A DNA stretch of 64,000 bases from a virus: IMG/VR virus record IMGVR_UViG_3300015368_000213, positions 1-64,000 of that record; one strand, written 5' to 3'. Positions 1,646-11,724 of this stretch are shown piece by piece. Position 1 is the first letter of the stretch; each line of letters begins with the position of its first letter. The notes beneath the pieces were generated by a model. It was not told where the DNA came from. It saw only the letters and a list, made by a program, of their open reading frames with translations, and ran no database searches. The translations under genes were made by a program, and so were the position numbers.

Positions 1646-1963
1646 TTACTGCAAATCCCAAACCTTACCATCAGCATCACGATAGAAGTCATCGTTAGCA
1701 TTAACCCAAATCTTTTCATTATCAACTGGGTCAATTACATACCACTGATTGCCTTCCTGCTTGGCGTGAATTGTGCCAACCACAATAAAATTGTGTTCAG
1801 AAGTATTATCCTGAGTAGTGGTTGTGGTAGTTGTTGTAGTAACAATTTCTTCTTCATCATCATCGTAAAAATCATCATATCGCATAGTACGAGTCCTCTC
1901 AACAATAACGCCAATTAGTATAGCAAATAATAGAATACAAATCAATAGAATAAGCAAATGCAC
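1646..1963 (-). CDS. Membrane-anchored poly-Thr protein
   Basis: 105 residues from a GTG start at 1963, preceded by GGAGATTAAC. Residues 1-22 are a hydrophobic anchor (LLILLICILLFAILIGVIV). Next come a Tyr/Asp/Glu-rich stretch, nine consecutive Thr, and a compact C-terminal domain (HNFIVVGTIHA...WYVIDPVDNEKIWV...GKVWDLQ). It is probably displayed on one face of the inner membrane or exported. Function unknown; its neighbour is also a Thr-rich exported protein. Confidence 0.65.
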   Translation of the reverse strand: MHLLILLICILLFAILIGVIVERTRTMRYDDFYDDDEEEIVTTTTTTTTTQDNTSEHNFIVVGTIHAKQEGNQWYVIDPVDNEKIWVNANDDFYRDADGKVWDLQ

Positions 1964-1972
1964 GTTAATCTC

Positions 1973-2665
1973 CTAACCAACTAATAACAATACGATAACA
2001 AGAATAATCACAAAAGCAACCAGTACACCTACAACAATATCATTGTCAGATGAACGAGTTTGAATCACTACTGGTTGTGGTTGTGCAACTTGTTCCCCAG
2101 CATCAGCAGGTACGGTTTGTGCTACCATCTGACCATTATCTACTGGAGTAAATTGTCCATTGACATAGGTACCCACTACGTATCCATTTTGGTTAACAAC
2201 CTGCCCATTAGGGTATAGCAACGCATTGTTATTGTAAATGCCGCCACCAGTGTACATAACTGTACCATATGGATGCAACATACCACCAATAATCAATCCA
2301 GTCAATAGACCATTGTTGTAATGGTATCCATATCCCCAGCCACCGCCGTAGTACCCACCAGGACTTGTGTATCTACCAGAATATGATCGATTGATTCTTG
2401 TAGACGTAGTAGTGGTAGTTGTGGTTGTACGTGGAGCAGAAACTGTACGTGGAGCAGTACTAAAACTGCCTCTTGACGTAGAGCCTGATGTACTAAAACT
2501 ACCTCTGCTAGGTGAAGATGCTATCCTTGGTGAACTGAATCCACCGCGAAATGCTGACCCACCACTGAACCCACGACTACCACCGCCGTAACCACCGCCC
2601 GGTTTAGCATTGGCTGAACCAACTACCAACAGTGAACACAGTAATACCAATAGAATCTTTCTCAT
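1973..2665 (-). CDS. Secreted Gly/Ser/Thr-rich protein with C-terminal membrane helix
   Basis: 230 residues from ATG 2665 (GAGAGG ribosome site). A clear Sec signal peptide (KILLVLLCSLLVVGSANA, cleavage after ANA) is followed by Gly-rich repeats, Ser/Arg-Gly repeats (SRGSFSTSGS), eight Thr in a row, Tyr/Gly-rich segments, and a final hydrophobic helix (DIVVGVLVAFVIILVIVLLLVG). It resembles bacterial low-complexity surface proteins more than phage virion proteins, so it may have been acquired from a host. Function unknown. Confidence 0.65.
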   Translation of the reverse strand: MRKILLVLLCSLLVVGSANAKPGGGYGGGSRGFSGGSAFRGGFSSPRIASSPSRGSFSTSGSTSRGSFSTAPRTVSAPRTTTTTTTTSTRINRSYSGRYTSPGGYYGGGWGYGYHYNNGLLTGLIIGGMLHPYGTVMYTGGGIYNNNALLYPNGQVVNQNGYVVGTYVNGQFTPVDNGQMVAQTVPADAGEQVAQPQPVVIQTRSSDNDIVVGVLVAFVIILVIVLLLVG

Positions 2666-2693
2666 AAAGCCTCTCAAATATTAAAAAACAACC

Positions 2694-3002
2694 TTACTCA
2701 AACTTCTTTTTCAATCTCTCAAGTTCAGCACGTTCACGCTGCTCTTGCCGTTCTTTCATTACCTGTTCCTTTGCTAGTCGTGCCTCTTGTTCAGCATCCG
2801 TTTCTTCACGGTACTCAAAAAGATACAACCCCGAATGATCATTATAATCCAACGTATCAAGACCATAACGAACATCACGCCCTTTATAGTATTCTTTTAG
2901 CCGTAACATACGGTTGATTACATCGTCAAATGTCTCGCCGTCAAACTTGTCATCTTGGCTATAATTGTCTACTAGCGTTCGAACCATTTTACGCTCGCTC
3001 AT
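2694..3002 (-). CDS. Hypothetical protein with charged C-terminal helix
   Basis: 102 residues, starting MSERKMVRTLVDNY with GGGAGATTGTA before the ATG. The C-terminal third is one long Glu/Arg/Gln-rich helix (EQEARLAKEQVMKERQEQRE...). First gene after the promoter at 3035-3062. No family recognised. Confidence 0.6.
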   Translation of the reverse strand: MSERKMVRTLVDNYSQDDKFDGETFDDVINRMLRLKEYYKGRDVRYGLDTLDYNDHSGLYLFEYREETDAEQEARLAKEQVMKERQEQRERAELERLKKKFE

Positions 3003-4570: not shown

Positions 4571-5467
4571 TCAAGAAACAAACTCGTTAAAGAAATTTTC
4601 AATGAAAGCCAATCTATCCTGTTCTTCCAAACTTACAAAATGATCTCTGTTGCTGTTGATGTGATCTACCAATGGATAATACTCCTCTGGCAAATTATTC
4701 TTGTTTGCAATCAACCATTCCGAAGTAACCTTTTCTGCTCTAATGCGAGCAAACAATTTCTTGGTTAGATAATATGGTGATTTGATCTTCAATACAGTAG
4801 TAGCAGTATACACAACAAATCCTTCTTTTTGAGAATTCTTTGCTTCGTTAACCAAATCACTGAATCTACACACACTACATCGTGGAATAAATGCACCAAA
4901 TTCTCGTAACTTAACTTCTGATAGAGAAGGAATAGCAGGATCAGGAATATCAAGCACTCCAGTAGAAATATTTCTTCTGCCTAGAAAATACGCACCAGTT
5001 TTTTCCTTAATGATATGCGGATCACTATGATCAACAATTTCAAACATATAGGTGTATCCCACATCAAGAGCACCTTTCAATGGTGTGATATGCTTTTCTG
5101 CCAGTGTTACGAAATCAGAATCTAATGATCCCGTAGTGGATACAATCAACCCATGCACAGGATGCATGGTTGCTGCGCCCATAAATCCATTGATCTTCTC
5201 AATCGAAATAACCAAGTTATCCCGTGGAATATCTGTATTATTTTCAAAACGATTAAAGATCTTCTTGAATGGCAGACAGACAATGTTGTAATCTGCATCC
5301 ACAACCATGCCACGCATTTCCATTAATTCTGGTGTCCAGAGATTATCATAGAATACACGATTGTGGTACTTCAAAACAAATAGATCAGGATAACGCTTTG
5401 ATTCCTTGCGCAATACTAATCTAGGATTGTTTTCAACAAAATATCTTATTTGAGTTGGAGTCAACAT
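4571..5467 (-). CDS. ATP-dependent RNA ligase (T4 Rnl1-like)
   Basis: 298 residues from ATG 5467; an in-frame TTG at 5479 is rejected. Nucleotidyltransferase motifs: MRGMVVD (about 51-57) with LPFKKIFNRFE, typical of the T4 RnlA RNA-ligase family; motif I KxNG at about 91-94, whose lysine carries the AMP; motif IV EGFVV and motif V LKIKSPYY near residues 215-235. It would seal broken RNA such as cleaved tRNAs. It directly follows a polynucleotide-kinase-like gene, the classic phage RNA-repair pair, with Ro-like protein and Y-like RNAs a few kb upstream. Substrate is inferred. Confidence 0.85.
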   Translation of the reverse strand: MLTPTQIRYFVENNPRLVLRKESKRYPDLFVLKYHNRVFYDNLWTPELMEMRGMVVDADYNIVCLPFKKIFNRFENNTDIPRDNLVISIEKINGFMGAATMHPVHGLIVSTTGSLDSDFVTLAEKHITPLKGALDVGYTYMFEIVDHSDPHIIKEKTGAYFLGRRNISTGVLDIPDPAIPSLSEVKLREFGAFIPRCSVCRFSDLVNEAKNSQKEGFVVYTATTVLKIKSPYYLTKKLFARIRAEKVTSEWLIANKNNLPEEYYPLVDHINSNRDHFVSLEEQDRLAFIENFFNEFVS

Positions 5468-5475
5468 GTTATATC

Positions 5476-5922
5476 TCAATCAATTTCAAAATGCTTTATA
5501 TCAACGAAATTCTCAAAATATTTCACAACATCCTCATTGGATACGAAACGATTCTTCATCCTTTCTATAGTATCATATGGGACATTATGCACTGATCCAA
5601 AATTATGCTTCATATGGATGATAATCATCGCATACCCATAATCCTTTGTCAATTGGGCATAGGGTGTAATTTCAGAGATCTTAGTAAATGTGTTGGACAC
5701 GAAAATTTTTTCTGTACCATTAAGCATTTCACATTCAACGGAAAAACGACACCATTTGTGCGCCTTATTTAAATAAGATGCATCAAATTTGTATTCTTCA
5801 TTGTCCATGAAGTACATATCAGTTTCCCGATGTACGCTATTTGGTGCTGCCTGTGCTGCTGCTTGGGCATAAGTGGACTTACCAGAACCGGGTAGTCCAC
5901 GAATTATGTATAGTGTTTTCAT
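5476..5922 (-). CDS. Polynucleotide-kinase-like P-loop ATPase
   Basis: 148 residues. The N-terminus holds a Walker A motif GLPGSGKST (9-17), then HRETDMYFM. The order of motifs resembles the kinase domain of T4 Pnk/zeta-like AAA_33 kinases. There is no C-terminal HAD phosphatase domain, so only 5' phosphorylation is expected. Immediately upstream of the RNA ligase, suggesting joint end-healing and sealing of RNA. Could alternatively be a small-molecule kinase. Confidence 0.7.
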   Translation of the reverse strand: MKTLYIIRGLPGSGKSTYAQAAAQAAPNSVHRETDMYFMDNEEYKFDASYLNKAHKWCRFSVECEMLNGTEKIFVSNTFTKISEITPYAQLTKDYGYAMIIIHMKHNFGSVHNVPYDTIERMKNRFVSNEDVVKYFENFVDIKHFEID

Positions 5923-6735
5923 TTATGCTGCTGCTTTTGTGTCGGTGAGTGTTTTTACTCTGGAGAGAACAGTCTGCTGCTGTCCATTATATTCACGATA
6001 TCCCTTGATGGTTCCACGGATGCTCAACTTCAAACCCACTTTAGGTGCCCATGCTGACGACATCACAGTGATGCATGCATTGGTAGTACTCTCCACCATT
6101 ATAGTCAGAGCTGATGCACCATACAGTGTCTGTAATGGGATTGATTTGATCACTGTAACATCAATATCAACACGCTTGCCAGCAACACCATAATGTGCAT
6201 CTTTACTTGGTGTTGGCAGCAACAGATGCTGATATTTTTCACGAAGGACTTGAGCAACATAATACAGAATAGAATCTTCTTTGAATGCACCAGTGGTCAT
6301 CATCCATTGCATGTAGGATACATCAATATCTTCGAATTTGTGACCAGTGAAACGACCAATAGGCATGATTCCGGAATTTACTAATTCCTTGTATTCGACC
6401 ATCAACTTCTCACGGGCAGCAATTTCATCCACAATTCGCTGCTGACGGGCTGCTTCACGTTTTTCCAATTCCTCCTTTGTTGTGCGCTTGATTTCACGCA
6501 TTTCAATCAAAAGAGTATTTCTGTCGTAACTGATAGGCATACTACGCTTTTCGGCATATTCTGTTGCCTTGGCAATAGCCACATCAATATCCTGAGACAG
6601 GTTCTGGATATGATATGAAAGCATCACCTTGCGACGACCAAAGAAGTCAACACTATTTTCCCGCAGGGTATAGAACGCGCAGGTTTCACCAATTCCAATG
6701 TAGAGGACAGGTATGAAAGCGTCTGTGTTGCTCAT
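5923..6735 (-). CDS. Predicted nucleic-acid-binding protein (DUF3820-like centre, OB-like C-terminus)
   Basis: 270 residues. Residues about 80-115 are a charged helix (KRTTKEELEKREAARQQR...). The centre, MPIGRFTGHKFEDIDVSYMQWMM, resembles the short fold found after exonuclease domains and in DUF3820 proteins. The C-terminal ~85 residues (RVDIDVTVIKSIPL...LSIRGTIKGYREYNG) alternate strands as in an OB fold. Role unknown; first gene of the operon that ends with the RNA repair pair, behind the promoter at 6767-6795. Confidence 0.6.
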   Translation of the reverse strand: MSNTDAFIPVLYIGIGETCAFYTLRENSVDFFGRRKVMLSYHIQNLSQDIDVAIAKATEYAEKRSMPISYDRNTLLIEMREIKRTTKEELEKREAARQQRIVDEIAAREKLMVEYKELVNSGIMPIGRFTGHKFEDIDVSYMQWMMTTGAFKEDSILYYVAQVLREKYQHLLLPTPSKDAHYGVAGKRVDIDVTVIKSIPLQTLYGASALTIMVESTTNACITVMSSAWAPKVGLKLSIRGTIKGYREYNGQQQTVLSRVKTLTDTKAAA

Positions 6736-9016: not shown

Positions 9017-9499
9017 TTAATATATATTTTCGTTCGGGAATTCTTCTGTTGGCACAAAGATGTATTGTGGAGATTTTGGCTTAACGTATGGGAATACTAC
9101 ATCCCCTCTACAGTGTATATTGGTGTAATATGATTTACATGGTGTGCCATCGTCATCGCGTCGCCATTCCCACAACACAGCCGCATCAATATCATAACAA
9201 TGATCACCAGATTTAAATACGGATGATATCCTGTTGTTTTGTAGTGTTCCCTCAGAAACCTCATTCCATTCTGAATCTTCCCCAGTTAAAGGTGATATCG
9301 TTCTAAAATTAACCAATTCATTAAAAATGGTCAATGCATAATCAGCACTAAATCCACTGTGACCCTGTTTAGCGAATACATCTAATAATTCTAATATGTT
9401 ATCGCATATACTTTTTTGTGCGGCATCCGAATACGCTCCAGATTCATCCATCCAGCCAGCCAGCTTAAATTCTCTCAGTGCATGTTCTTTAATACTCAT
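9017..9499 (-). CDS. Conserved hypothetical phage protein
   Basis: 160 residues from ATG 9499 (GGTGAA ribosome site). Begins MSIKEHALREFKLAGWMDES; contains GHSGFSADYALTIFNELVNF, ISPLTGEDSEWNEV, a CYDIDAAVLWEWRRDDDG segment and FPYVKPKSPQYIFVP. I recall close relatives scattered through many proteobacterial phages (the pattern GHSG...PLTGE.W.W), none characterised to my knowledge. Confidence 0.75.
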   Translation of the reverse strand: MSIKEHALREFKLAGWMDESGAYSDAAQKSICDNILELLDVFAKQGHSGFSADYALTIFNELVNFRTISPLTGEDSEWNEVSEGTLQNNRISSVFKSGDHCYDIDAAVLWEWRRDDDGTPCKSYYTNIHCRGDVVFPYVKPKSPQYIFVPTEEFPNENIY

Positions 9500-9503
9500 A
9501 ATT

Positions 9504-9659
9504 TCACCAATGCCGTATAACGCCAGCCACAATAAAAATATTTGTTATGAGATATGATATGATTATCAATGTTCTTATCACTGCAATCATATCTGCTTCA
9601 TTATCCGTCCTACCAGACTTATCACCAAGGGCTTTAGCCCAGATCCGCCAAAACCTCAT
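9504..9659 (-). CDS. 51-residue membrane protein
   Basis: MRFWRIWAKALGDKSGRTDN, then EADMIAVIRT and a transmembrane helix (LIIISYLITNIFIVAGVI) ending RHW. ATGA overlap with the upstream gene. I recall this small protein type in other phages of Gram-negative hosts; function unknown. Confidence 0.6.
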   Translation of the reverse strand: MRFWRIWAKALGDKSGRTDNEADMIAVIRTLIIISYLITNIFIVAGVIRHW

Positions 9660-10006
9660 AGAGACAGATACCACGCCAATGTTATATAAACAAATTGATG
9701 CGCCATCTGATCCAATCCTAAATGACTCCAGAACTGAGGGGTTTGTATGTCACGATTACCATAGTTCATTTTGAACCAATCAATATGATAATGTGTAATG
9801 AAATCAAAAACACCTATCACACATGCAATGGGTAGTCCAGTAAAAAATAATCCGATAAACGTAGTGAATACTCCATGCTGGAGAGAATGGAGTATTCCAT
9901 GCGGATTACCATATATCCCTTTACCATTTACCATTTTCATGGTTTGTAGATGGAAGTCTACAAACCAATGCTTAATCTGGCAGAGTAAAAGAAATTCAAA
10001 CATCAT
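9656..10006 (-). CDS. DUF3307-like membrane protein
   Basis: 116 residues with three to four hydrophobic segments. Conserved His/Asp pattern KHWFVDF, GNPHGILHSLQHGVFT, DFITHYHIDWFK and HLGLDQMAHQFVY matches the DUF3307 style of polytopic proteins (His/Asp-rich helices). ATG 10006 overlaps the stop of the Ro-like gene (ATGATG). Probably resides in the inner membrane; role unknown. Confidence 0.7.
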   Translation of the reverse strand: MMFEFLLLCQIKHWFVDFHLQTMKMVNGKGIYGNPHGILHSLQHGVFTTFIGLFFTGLPIACVIGVFDFITHYHIDWFKMNYGNRDIQTPQFWSHLGLDQMAHQFVYITLAWYLSL

Positions 10007-11412
10007 TGCCAATCGTACTTAGAGATGCACACAGCTTTCTTCATGACGGATTCTGGTGAGAATTCTTCAAGATCAGCTTCGAGCACAGCACTCATGATTG
10101 ATGGTGAGAATCCAGATACCAAACACACTCCACGCTTGTCATATGACACTGGTGTATTGTCGGTTGATCGCAGATTCCAGAACACAATCATAGGTACTTG
10201 ATATCCAGCACTTTCATACTTTCTTTCAATCATCTTCATTGCAGAATCATCATACATTGCGCATTGATCAAATTGCATATCAGACAAAATCAAAAGGTAC
10301 TTTGGCATATCAGCCTGTGGTACAGAATTTTTGGTTGCAACATGTAGAATACGATCAAATGCGGCATGCAAATTAGTATTCATGTTCCATTCACTACTAT
10401 TCATCTGCACCATCTTCTGGCTCAATGTTCCTTGAACTTTAAGAATCTCTGGTTTTTCTGAGAATGTCAGGAACATATCCTTGAATGCGCCACTGTTCTT
10501 GTCTGCGCAATATAATCCCAAGGACAACGCAACATCAATACAACTGATGCTGTTATTCTTTCCTACATGGGCACTCATAGAACCAGAAACATCCACCATT
10601 GGTAGAACATTAGCATCAGACATGTAATTTGGTAGGCTATCCCACTGTTTATCACATACTGCCTTATCACCACGGTGACGCAATGCTTTGATGATGTCGT
10701 ATGGATAAACAGCCGAAGCATTTACCTTAATACCTTCATCACCGCGCACTAATGCATTACGATATTCAACAAATCGTTGAGTATCATTCTTATGGAATAC
10801 AGTCATGTAACGCGACATAGCCAGTGATGGTACATGTGAATAGTTAATAACAGAGTATTCCTTATTACACATATGTGTTTCAACCACATTAGTCAAACCA
10901 ACCAACAGCTTACGATAAGCCTTTGGCGATAATCCCAAATAGTTGCGAAGTTCAGCAGCCAGCACCCCTTTTCTTTTTTGCCATTTGGCACACAATCCAT
11001 TCTGATTGTGTAGCGCAGTCTTGATGATATCGAACGCCCTAGACTTTACTTCTGCTGTCTTGAAGATAAGCAAATCATCCCATCGACCAATGTTTGGAAC
11101 ATTGTTCAGAAACTTGGATGTCAGTAAGTCTGGGTGATATGCTTCAAGATGAACAAGCATGTCACGGAACAGCTGACGTTCACCAGCTCCACCACGAACA
11201 TCACGCGACCACTGAGCAATTCGCATTGCAATATCAGTGTCTGCCTGAATAGCCTTCTCAAAAGCTGCTGTGATGTTCTTTCCACGACTTGCCCCGATGT
11301 TATAGAACAAATCTACAACAGAAGACATAGATGATTTCTGAGCTTTCATACCATTTTCGGTACGGGCTACAACTGGGGTTTTTGCTACGGCATCTACGAA
11401 ACTGTTCATCAT
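10003..11412 (-). CDS. Ro60-like RNA-binding protein (DUF2828 family: HEAT-like repeats + vWA)
   Basis: 469 residues. The N-terminal two thirds are alpha-helical repeats with RDVRGGAGERQLF (70-82) and VPNIGRWDDLL (105-115), the hallmark of DUF2828, a relative of the TROVE/Ro60 fold. The C-terminal third is a von Willebrand A domain with a MIDAS DVSGS (274-278), a downstream Thr in NMNTNLHAAFDR and Asp in LILSDMQFD. In Ro60 such a ring plus vWA binds Y RNAs and misfolded RNA. Three Y-like RNAs lie directly upstream in the same transcription unit, which strongly supports a Ro-type role here. Binding itself is inferred. Confidence 0.8.
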   Translation of the reverse strand: MMNSFVDAVAKTPVVARTENGMKAQKSSMSSVVDLFYNIGASRGKNITAAFEKAIQADTDIAMRIAQWSRDVRGGAGERQLFRDMLVHLEAYHPDLLTSKFLNNVPNIGRWDDLLIFKTAEVKSRAFDIIKTALHNQNGLCAKWQKRKGVLAAELRNYLGLSPKAYRKLLVGLTNVVETHMCNKEYSVINYSHVPSLAMSRYMTVFHKNDTQRFVEYRNALVRGDEGIKVNASAVYPYDIIKALRHRGDKAVCDKQWDSLPNYMSDANVLPMVDVSGSMSAHVGKNNSISCIDVALSLGLYCADKNSGAFKDMFLTFSEKPEILKVQGTLSQKMVQMNSSEWNMNTNLHAAFDRILHVATKNSVPQADMPKYLLILSDMQFDQCAMYDDSAMKMIERKYESAGYQVPMIVFWNLRSTDNTPVSYDKRGVCLVSGFSPSIMSAVLEADLEEFSPESVMKKAVCISKYDWQ

Positions 11413-11432: not shown

Positions 11433-11485
11433 AGGATCCCTTGCTTTTTTTTCCACAAAAAATTTTGGTTTGCTGTACGGATCCT
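11433..11485 (-). ncRNA. Y-RNA-like small RNA, element 3 (proximal to the Ro-like gene)
   Basis: 53 nt. Ends pair as AGGATCC (5', 11479-11485) with GGATCCT (3', 11433-11439). Directly after the 5' stem comes the shared motif ACAGCAAACCAAA (complement of 11464-11476). The loop folds as TTTTTT-GTGG-AAAAAA. It ends 21 bases before the Ro-like ATG. Same plan as elements 1 and 2 but without the tRNA-like insert. Confidence 0.65.
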
Positions 11486-11493
11486 AAACTAAC

Positions 11494-11606
11494 AGAATAC
11501 ATTTTTACGTGTCCTAACCACTAGACGAACACCATTTTCATGGTGTGATGGAATCGAACCACCGTCACGACATTAAGATTGTAATTTGTGTTGCTGTATG
11601 TATTCT
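11494..11606 (-). ncRNA. Y-RNA-like small RNA with tRNA-like domain, element 2
   Basis: 113 nt. A nine-pair end stem AGAATACAT/ATGTATTCT (11598-11606 with 11494-11502) carries the motif ACAGCAACACAAA on its 5' side and ACGTAAAAA on its 3' side. The distal part is a circularly permuted tRNA fold: T arm GGTGG-TTCGATT-CCATC (11563-11547), seven-pair acceptor stem ACACCAT/ATGGTGT closed by a GAAA tetraloop (11546-11529), two-base linker TC, and D arm GTCT-AGTGGTTA-GGAC (11526-11511). Spacing of all arms is canonical. This architecture matches bacterial YrlA-type Y RNAs, in which a tRNA-like module tops the Ro-binding stem. There is no anticodon loop, so it is not a tRNA. Confidence 0.85.
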
Positions 11607-11625
11607 AAAACCTCTAAATCAAAAC

Positions 11626-11680
11626 AGAATGCCTTTTTTACGTCTTTCAAATGTAAAGTTTGGTTTGCTGCAAGCATTCT
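11626..11680 (-). ncRNA. Y-RNA-like small RNA, element 1 (promoter-proximal)
   Basis: 55 nt. End stem AGAATGC/GCATTCT (11674-11680 with 11626-11632), motif GCAGCAAACCAAA after the 5' stem, small inner hairpin CTTT-ACATTTG-AAAG, and ACGTAAAAA on the 3' side as in element 2. The expected transcription start from the promoter at 11696-11724 lies about ten bases upstream of its first base. Confidence 0.65.
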
Positions 11681-11695
11681 TAATTCGTTATGTGT

Positions 11696-11724
11696 AGTAT
11701 ATAGTCAGAATTTATGAAAGTCAA
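11696..11724 (-). promoter_or_regulatory. Promoter of the Y-like RNA / Ro-like operon
   Basis: Minus strand: -35 TTGACT (11719-11724) overlapping the TGA of the upstream gene, 17-base spacer, -10 TATACT (11696-11701). Predicted start near 11689, just ahead of the first Y-like element. Belongs to the TTGACTTT class. Confidence 0.8.

Follow-up and report, generated by a model that had tools for sequence, protein, structure and literature searches.

Within a viral DNA stretch of 64,000 nucleotides (nt; IMG/VR record IMGVR_UViG_3300015368_000213, positions 1 to 64,000, referred to as the window) three small structured elements of 55, 113 and 53 nt are arranged in tandem on the minus strand, flanked on one side by a promoter-like site and on the other by a gene of the DUF2828/DUF7788 type, the product of which is predicted to adopt a Ro-like fold. 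We consider it quite probable that these elements are small non-coding Y-like RNAs which bind the DUF2828 Ro-like protein and which bear tRNA-like or other modules, probably for the handling or repair of RNA. All three start with AG and end with CT followed by G, and in each of them the outer 7 to 9 nt pair to form the 5'-3' end stem characteristic of Y RNAs. The hexamer CAGCAA, within the wider motif (A/G)CAGCAA, is found 1 to 3 nt behind the 5' strand of this stem.

Element 1 (11626..11680; window coordinates written with two dots denote features on the minus strand) is a short Y-like RNA of 55 nt whose end stem is formed by AGAATGC and GCATTCT, the latter followed by GT, and whose motif reads GCAGCAA (CAGCAA at 11670-11665). 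Element 3 (11433..11485), likewise short with 53 nt, pairs AGGATCC with GGATCCT, again followed by GT, and harbours ACAGCAA (CAGCAA at 11475-11470). The loop of both short elements comprises 35-40 nt and is mostly unpaired. Element 2 (11494..11606; 113 nt) has a 9-bp (base pair) end stem and the motif ACAGCAA (CAGCAA at 11596-11591), and its sequence and fold reveal a permuted tRNA core. Two of the three elements contain ACGTAAAAA on the 3' side. Upstream of the array a sigma-70-like promoter, TTGACT-17-TATACT (11696..11724), matches 10 of 12 consensus positions, which is weak evidence if taken alone; a TTGACA together with a -10-like hexamer can also be read from the sequence upstream of the elements of the relatives L001, L002 and L019. 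The ATG of the Ro-like gene is located at 11412, about 20 nt past the last stem. A preliminary description of the locus had given the positions and sizes of the elements, their three stems and shared motif, the occurrence of ACGTAAAAA in two of them, the promoter at 11724-11696 and the start codon shortly downstream, and all of these are correct when read on the minus strand. Neither does Rfam yield a match at gathering scores anywhere in the window, nor does ARAGORN detect a canonical tRNA in it.

The window alone constitutes weak evidence. CAGCAA in combination with a perfect 7-bp stem is present at 3 sites of the window, while dinucleotide shuffles contain 1.16 on average, and because 3 or more sites are reached in 23 of 200 such shuffles the raw count is not significant and was rejected as proof. 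It is the clustering of all three sites within 250 nt on one strand, together with the relatives, which carries the case. The promoter site by itself was discarded as evidence too, as it is not above chance (2.0 promoter-like sites expected in the 701-nt region scanned). The folding z-score of element 2 amounts to -2.5, and those of the short elements (-0.4 and -1.4) are no better than shuffles.

The same RNA design is found in other phages encoding a DUF2828 protein. Inspection of the gaps around homologous genes reveals three tandem elements upstream of the gene in Listeria phage LMTA-57, three downstream of it in Mycobacterium phage Enceladus, and several near the homologue in Felix O1, SUSP2 and Vibrio phages, those of Felix O1 (AF320576 23,870-23,941; 24,037-24,099; 24,491-24,563) being located downstream. 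The covariance model R1 was built from 18 short elements, the loops of which were trimmed to equal length; they come from 11 phages, namely nine named ones, that of the window and that of the L002 contig. Elements 1 and 3, being training sequences, score 39.8 and 39.6 bits. In 80 IMG/VR contigs with DUF2828, none of them used for training, R1 finds 107 matches, of which 106 are on the strand of the gene and most just upstream of it. A model-free search of the 80 contigs for CAGCAA with a 7-bp end stem returns 175 sense versus 24 antisense sites, while 59 permuted hexamers used as control give on average 12.5 sense and 6.5 antisense sites, the top ones being overlaps of the same motif. At least one such site is present in 73 of the 80 contigs and at least two in 61. 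Since the contigs are mutually related they do not represent independent events, and the named phages of different hosts better show the breadth of the occurrence. A genome scan with a closer alignment yielded 12 contigs, nine of which have R1 matches. Upon searching whole genomes of DUF2828 phages, an R1 match with an expectation value (E) of 0.05 or lower is obtained in 22 of 24 and, outside training, in 14 of 15, eight of these at E<=0.001. Hence, the covariance-model search of phage genomes which the preliminary description had suggested, as well as its expectation that the stems are conserved beside DUF2828 genes of related phages, turned out in its favour.

The stems vary in a compensatory manner. 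In alignment A2 all seven stem pairs vary with both sides changed, resulting in 53 cells compared to 13 in shuffles and 3-17 when the partners are slid against each other. As the rows of A2 were picked for having stems, this result shows the variety of the stem and not its existence. Compensatory change had been read earlier from the three window stems, which are present as written, and the double changes at all seven pairs of A2 agree with it. Less uniform is the position of the elements. Their placement upstream of the gene, also claimed before, holds for the window and many contigs, but many phages keep them in distant tRNA clusters. OR515478, KU682439, MT028491, MW879342 and MK268344, for example, carry them at a great distance from the gene and for the most part in the company of tRNA genes. 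Where the vicinity of the gene contains no elements, these are present in other parts of the genome, and 13 of 14 such regions from DUF2828 phages contain same-strand tRNA genes no more than about 1 kb away. Because the elements are so often remote and accompanied by tRNA genes, an action in trans is favoured.

Within element 2, the T-arm GGTGG TTCGATT CCATC (11547..11563; 5 bp, 7-nt loop) is followed by an acceptor-like helix, ACACCAT GAAA ATGGTGT (11529..11546), of 7 bp which is closed by a tetraloop and has no free CCA end, and then by a D-arm-like segment recognised from its sequence, TCGTCTAGTGGTTAGGAC (11511..11528). The minimum-energy fold contains both the T-arm and the acceptor helix, while the D-arm-like segment, which we take to resemble the D-arm of tRNA-Glu, is not formed. 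This topology is shared by a whole class of elements: among 21 elements that possess an end stem and a T-loop, 16 contain, 3' to the T-arm, a helix of 7 perfect base pairs compared to 0.89 expected, this helix not having been a selection criterion. The sequences of the acceptor helix differ among these tRNA-like elements, a D-arm-like TAGC...GGTA...GAGC usually comes next, and they possess neither an anticodon arm nor a free 3' end.

Further variants of the tRNA-like type are observed in L010 (2055-2330) and L027 (3647-3840), in which a copy in tRNA order, with an ACAGCAA element replacing the anticodon arm, is apparently nested in a permuted one. In PhiImVa-1 the nested copy is annotated as a 115-nt suppressor tRNA, and similar calls of 113-121 nt in Ci1, S13 and Ahp1 are listed as tRNA-OTHER, pseudo-tRNA or tRNA-Ser. 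A second effector type, found in L037 (280-440) and 14 relatives (alignment A5), is 140-175 nt long and contains the highly conserved module GAGTGATGGCC...AAAAGCAGTCAACAAC. Compensatory changes are present at 19 pairs of this type, and its L048 member has no Rfam match.

The gene adjacent to the array (10003..11412) encodes a protein of 469 amino acids composed of DUF2828 and DUF7788 (vWA) and assigned to PHROG 850, which is annotated as 'RNA-binding protein'. With 94.4 bits the score for Pfam DUF2828 (PF11443) is above the cut-off of 29. In a fold search with its AlphaFold2 model (pLDDT 79.8), the top three Foldseek matches are 9kop (TROVE domain), 9l5y (Ro60 of Thermus phage phiLo) and 2nvo (Rsr of D. 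radiodurans), with E from 2e-10 to 2e-7 and TM from 0.41 to 0.56 over nearly the full length, and these three Ro60/TROVE/Rsr structures are the only matches in the PDB with E<=0.001. A search of the PDB with the sequence of the protein gave no significant match to Ro60. The neighbour of the array is thus Ro-like by its predicted fold, a HEAT-like ring plus vWA domain, yet its Pfam match is DUF2828/DUF7788 rather than TROVE. By tblastn, 682 phage records with this Ro-like protein are retrieved, including that of Felix O1 and those of many phages of Listeria (e.g. P100), and the homologues are usually labelled hypothetical or 'RNA-binding'. In the literature searched, no RNA partner family for DUF2828 proteins was found.

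We propose that the end stem and the single-stranded (A/G)CAGCAA core would form the site to which the adjacent DUF2828 ring protein binds, while the remainder of each RNA would serve as an exchangeable effector end which in one member mimics a tRNA. The array may accordingly represent a modular design with a constant candidate binding end and swappable tRNA-like or other ends. By analogy with YrlA and the Y RNA of D. radiodurans, the permuted tRNA core could be seen by tRNA-binding enzymes or could show the ring to a nuclease or repair enzyme. The elements would be transcribed as separate RNAs, and the resulting RNA-protein complex may handle or repair tRNA or structured RNA during infection. 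A recognisable candidate RNA partner and a candidate binding site would make the function of the Ro-like protein testable in laboratory phages. In Listeria phage CKA15 the Ro-like protein CKA15_055 was detected in purified particles, and three strongly transcribed non-coding regions were tentatively called Y RNAs (PMC12282133). Overproduction of the Ro-like protein gp53 of LeBron is toxic, as is that of the RNA ligase and the polynucleotide kinase of this phage (PMC13148394).

Several points weigh against the interpretation of the elements as Y-like partners of the protein. The strongest of the CKA15 regions (OR088597 26,236-26,727, about L013 6491-6982) is a ROOL RNA by its Rfam score. The Y-like elements of this phage are located in the gap at OR088597 25,216-25,610, and the text of PMC12282133 is silent on the gap at about 25.2-25.6 kb being among the strongly transcribed regions. 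Pfam TROVE (PF05731) gives no match at E<=0.01 for the 469-residue protein, and the YrlA model does not find the window's own tRNA-like element. The negative control is small, consisting of three phages: T4 and phiKZ yield no R1 match, and P-SSM2, which has no DUF2828, yields a single weak one of 21.8 bits, a value that marks the noise to be expected in an AT-rich genome. A screen of 185 genomes of one bacterial class speaks in favour of the association, as the only genome with an R1 match (E<=0.01) is also the only one with DUF2828, both being 0.6 kb apart, but it is limited in that just 31 candidates were scored per genome and the matching genome is the centre of the 185-genome draw. For comparison, a canonical TROVE locus was encountered once among 229 genomes, without an R1 match, a single locus being too few to draw a conclusion. 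As an observation of its own, L013 6473-7024 (OR088597 26,236-26,727) scores 88.5 bits (E=6e-18) with the Rfam model of ROOL, just under the cut-off of 99.1; that the most abundant non-coding RNA of CKA15, for which an sRNA or a Y RNA had been suggested, is one of the elements described here was rejected as this region scores as ROOL.

An array directly upstream of the gene and on its strand, preceded by a promoter-like site and separated from the start codon by about 20 nt, as seen in the window and many contigs, would also be compatible with a cis-acting leader, i.e. with structures in the 5' leader which regulate the Ro-like mRNA, for instance by autoregulation via the binding motif, and do not give rise to separate RNAs. 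The elements are, however, far from the gene in the five genomes listed above by accession and downstream of it in Felix O1 and Enceladus, and a tRNA core would have no role in a simple leader. We thus regard this explanation as unlikely, although autoregulation could still occur alongside an action in trans. The frequent location among tRNA genes, where several copies are annotated as pseudo-tRNA or tRNA-OTHER, could in turn suggest that the elements are what is left of tRNA genes, or that they belong to tRNA operons as spacers or processing signals, in each case with no partner protein at all. Yet the short members contain no tRNA sequence, the stems change in a compensatory manner, the occurrence of the elements tracks DUF2828, and the window is devoid of any tRNA gene, which renders such an origin highly improbable.

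The perfect T-loop, the 7-bp acceptor and the D-arm-like segment, with neither anticodon arm nor free 3' end, could furthermore mean that the tRNA-like member mainly acts, as a decoy or sponge, on tRNA enzymes or on host defences which cut tRNA, with the protein stabilising or displaying it. The presence of an Rnl1-type RNA ligase gene in the window and, in the vicinity of some homologues, of genes for RtcB, an RNA ligase or a kinase would agree with this. The anticodon loop, target of the known anticodon nucleases, is missing, however, and many members of the family, as evident from the length classes, have no tRNA-like part; a decoy as the main function therefore appears rather unlikely to us. 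If the elements are Y-like RNAs bound by the Ro-like protein, as we prefer, the T4 Rnl1-type RNA ligase whose gene follows downstream of the Ro-like one at a distance of about 4.5 kb (4571..5479; PF09511, E=2.9e-08) is a possible partner of this system. RtcB is missing from the own genome of the window's phage; it is encoded by LMTA-57, and in Munch an RNA ligase lies beside the Ro-like gene.

Other observations concern the surroundings of the Ro-like gene. Downstream of it, a homologue of Tad3, an inhibitor of type I Thoeris, is encoded in the window at 9017-9532 (E=1.9e-32). In L002 and L003 (about 1760-3000) the DUF2828 gene is seemingly interrupted, as by an intron or mobile insertion, and about 1.2 kb separate the start of its N-terminal part from the matched C-terminal part that follows. 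In L105 a Polynucleobacter-1 RNA (RF01718, 83.2 bits) is present downstream of the DUF2828 gene at 5842-5986.

Compared to known systems, the protein is like the phage Ro60/TROVE proteins (phiLo Ro60, PDB 9l5y; TROVE proteins of jumbo phages, PMC7824862) in that a Ro-like ring plus vWA fold is present in a phage, but DUF2828 is a separate Pfam family. With YrlA and the D. radiodurans Y RNA, which belong to Ro60/Rsr, the elements share the end stem, the occurrence of several small RNAs per genome near a Ro-like gene, and a tRNA-like module in the permuted order T-arm, closed acceptor and D-arm. Elements of L016, L034, L089 and L135 reach 38-40 bits with the YrlA model (RF02553); the best score in the relatives, 40.5, and thus all scores are below the cut-off of 69, spurious matches over tandem tRNAs reaching up to about 27 bits. 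Chen et al. 2014 reportedly described more than 250 bacteria and phages in which Y RNAs occur close to Ro60, each having one or more of the tRNA-like type, and their list may include some phages of the present analysis. A tRNA-like member is recognised here by anatomy in the case of element 2, and by anatomy as well as the YrlA model in relatives. The YrlA consensus, in contrast, does not contain the stem-proximal CAGCAA core, the partner gene of the phage elements is DUF2828 and not Pfam TROVE, and many short phage members have no tRNA module, some of 140-175 nt having another conserved module (A5) instead. The reading of the locus as a Y-RNA-like array beside a DUF2828 Ro-like gene, put forward in the preliminary description, is supported by predicted fold, YrlA topology and co-occurrence with DUF2828 genes in phages of many hosts; what does not correspond to YrlA is the CAGCAA core. 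The phage arrays would follow the principle of Y RNAs while differing in core motif and Ro lineage.

Class I RNAs are abundant in slime moulds and are tied to Dictyostelium development. The corresponding Rfam model (RF01414, Dicty_Class_I) assigns 27.1 bits (E=0.0059) to element 1 and 25.5 bits (E=0.015) to element 3, and all ten matches obtained in about 160 kb are located on phage R1 elements, two in the window and eight in others; with a best score of 32.5 bits in the relatives, all remain below the cut-off of 41.5. With a length of about 60 nt, Class I RNAs have a 6-bp stem in which compensatory changes maintain the pairing, an 11-nt motif whose T, C, C, A and A are conserved, a 5' G that is paired, and CUGU on the 3' side (PMC7919456). 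Elements 1 and 3 conform to this definition with respect to end stem, core motif, 3' CUGU and a length close to 60 nt. Class I RNAs and phage elements thus resemble each other in a length of about 55-60 nt, a short compensatory end stem with an unstructured loop, a 5' G paired to the C of the 3' CUGU, and the core UUACAGCAA beside the 5' stem strand; the CAGCAA core of the phage elements thereby matches the Class I motif and not YrlA. Class I RNAs, however, were described as unique to dictyostelids, with a DUSE promoter and the RRM protein Rnp1A as known binder (PMC7919456), while the phage locus is non-dictyostelid and has a sigma-70-like promoter, DUSE itself not having been searched for. 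The literature searched holds evidence neither for nor against a dictyostelid DUF2828 protein. Given that the motif is common to all phage elements, the ten matches amount to one coincidence or one relationship, and because a core of nine letters could match once by accident among 4227 families, we put forward only tentatively, and with some doubt, that the DUF2828-associated phage RNAs and the Class I RNAs may form one ribonucleoprotein family spanning phages and eukaryotes. Class I RNAs would then be Y-like RNAs as well, with a DUF2828 or Ro-like protein as their missing partner. Should the core motif indeed be the DUF2828 binding site, a candidate partner class for the Dictyostelium Class I RNAs is at hand. 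It is chiefly this possible link to the Class I RNAs which would be new, the Y RNA principle itself being known.
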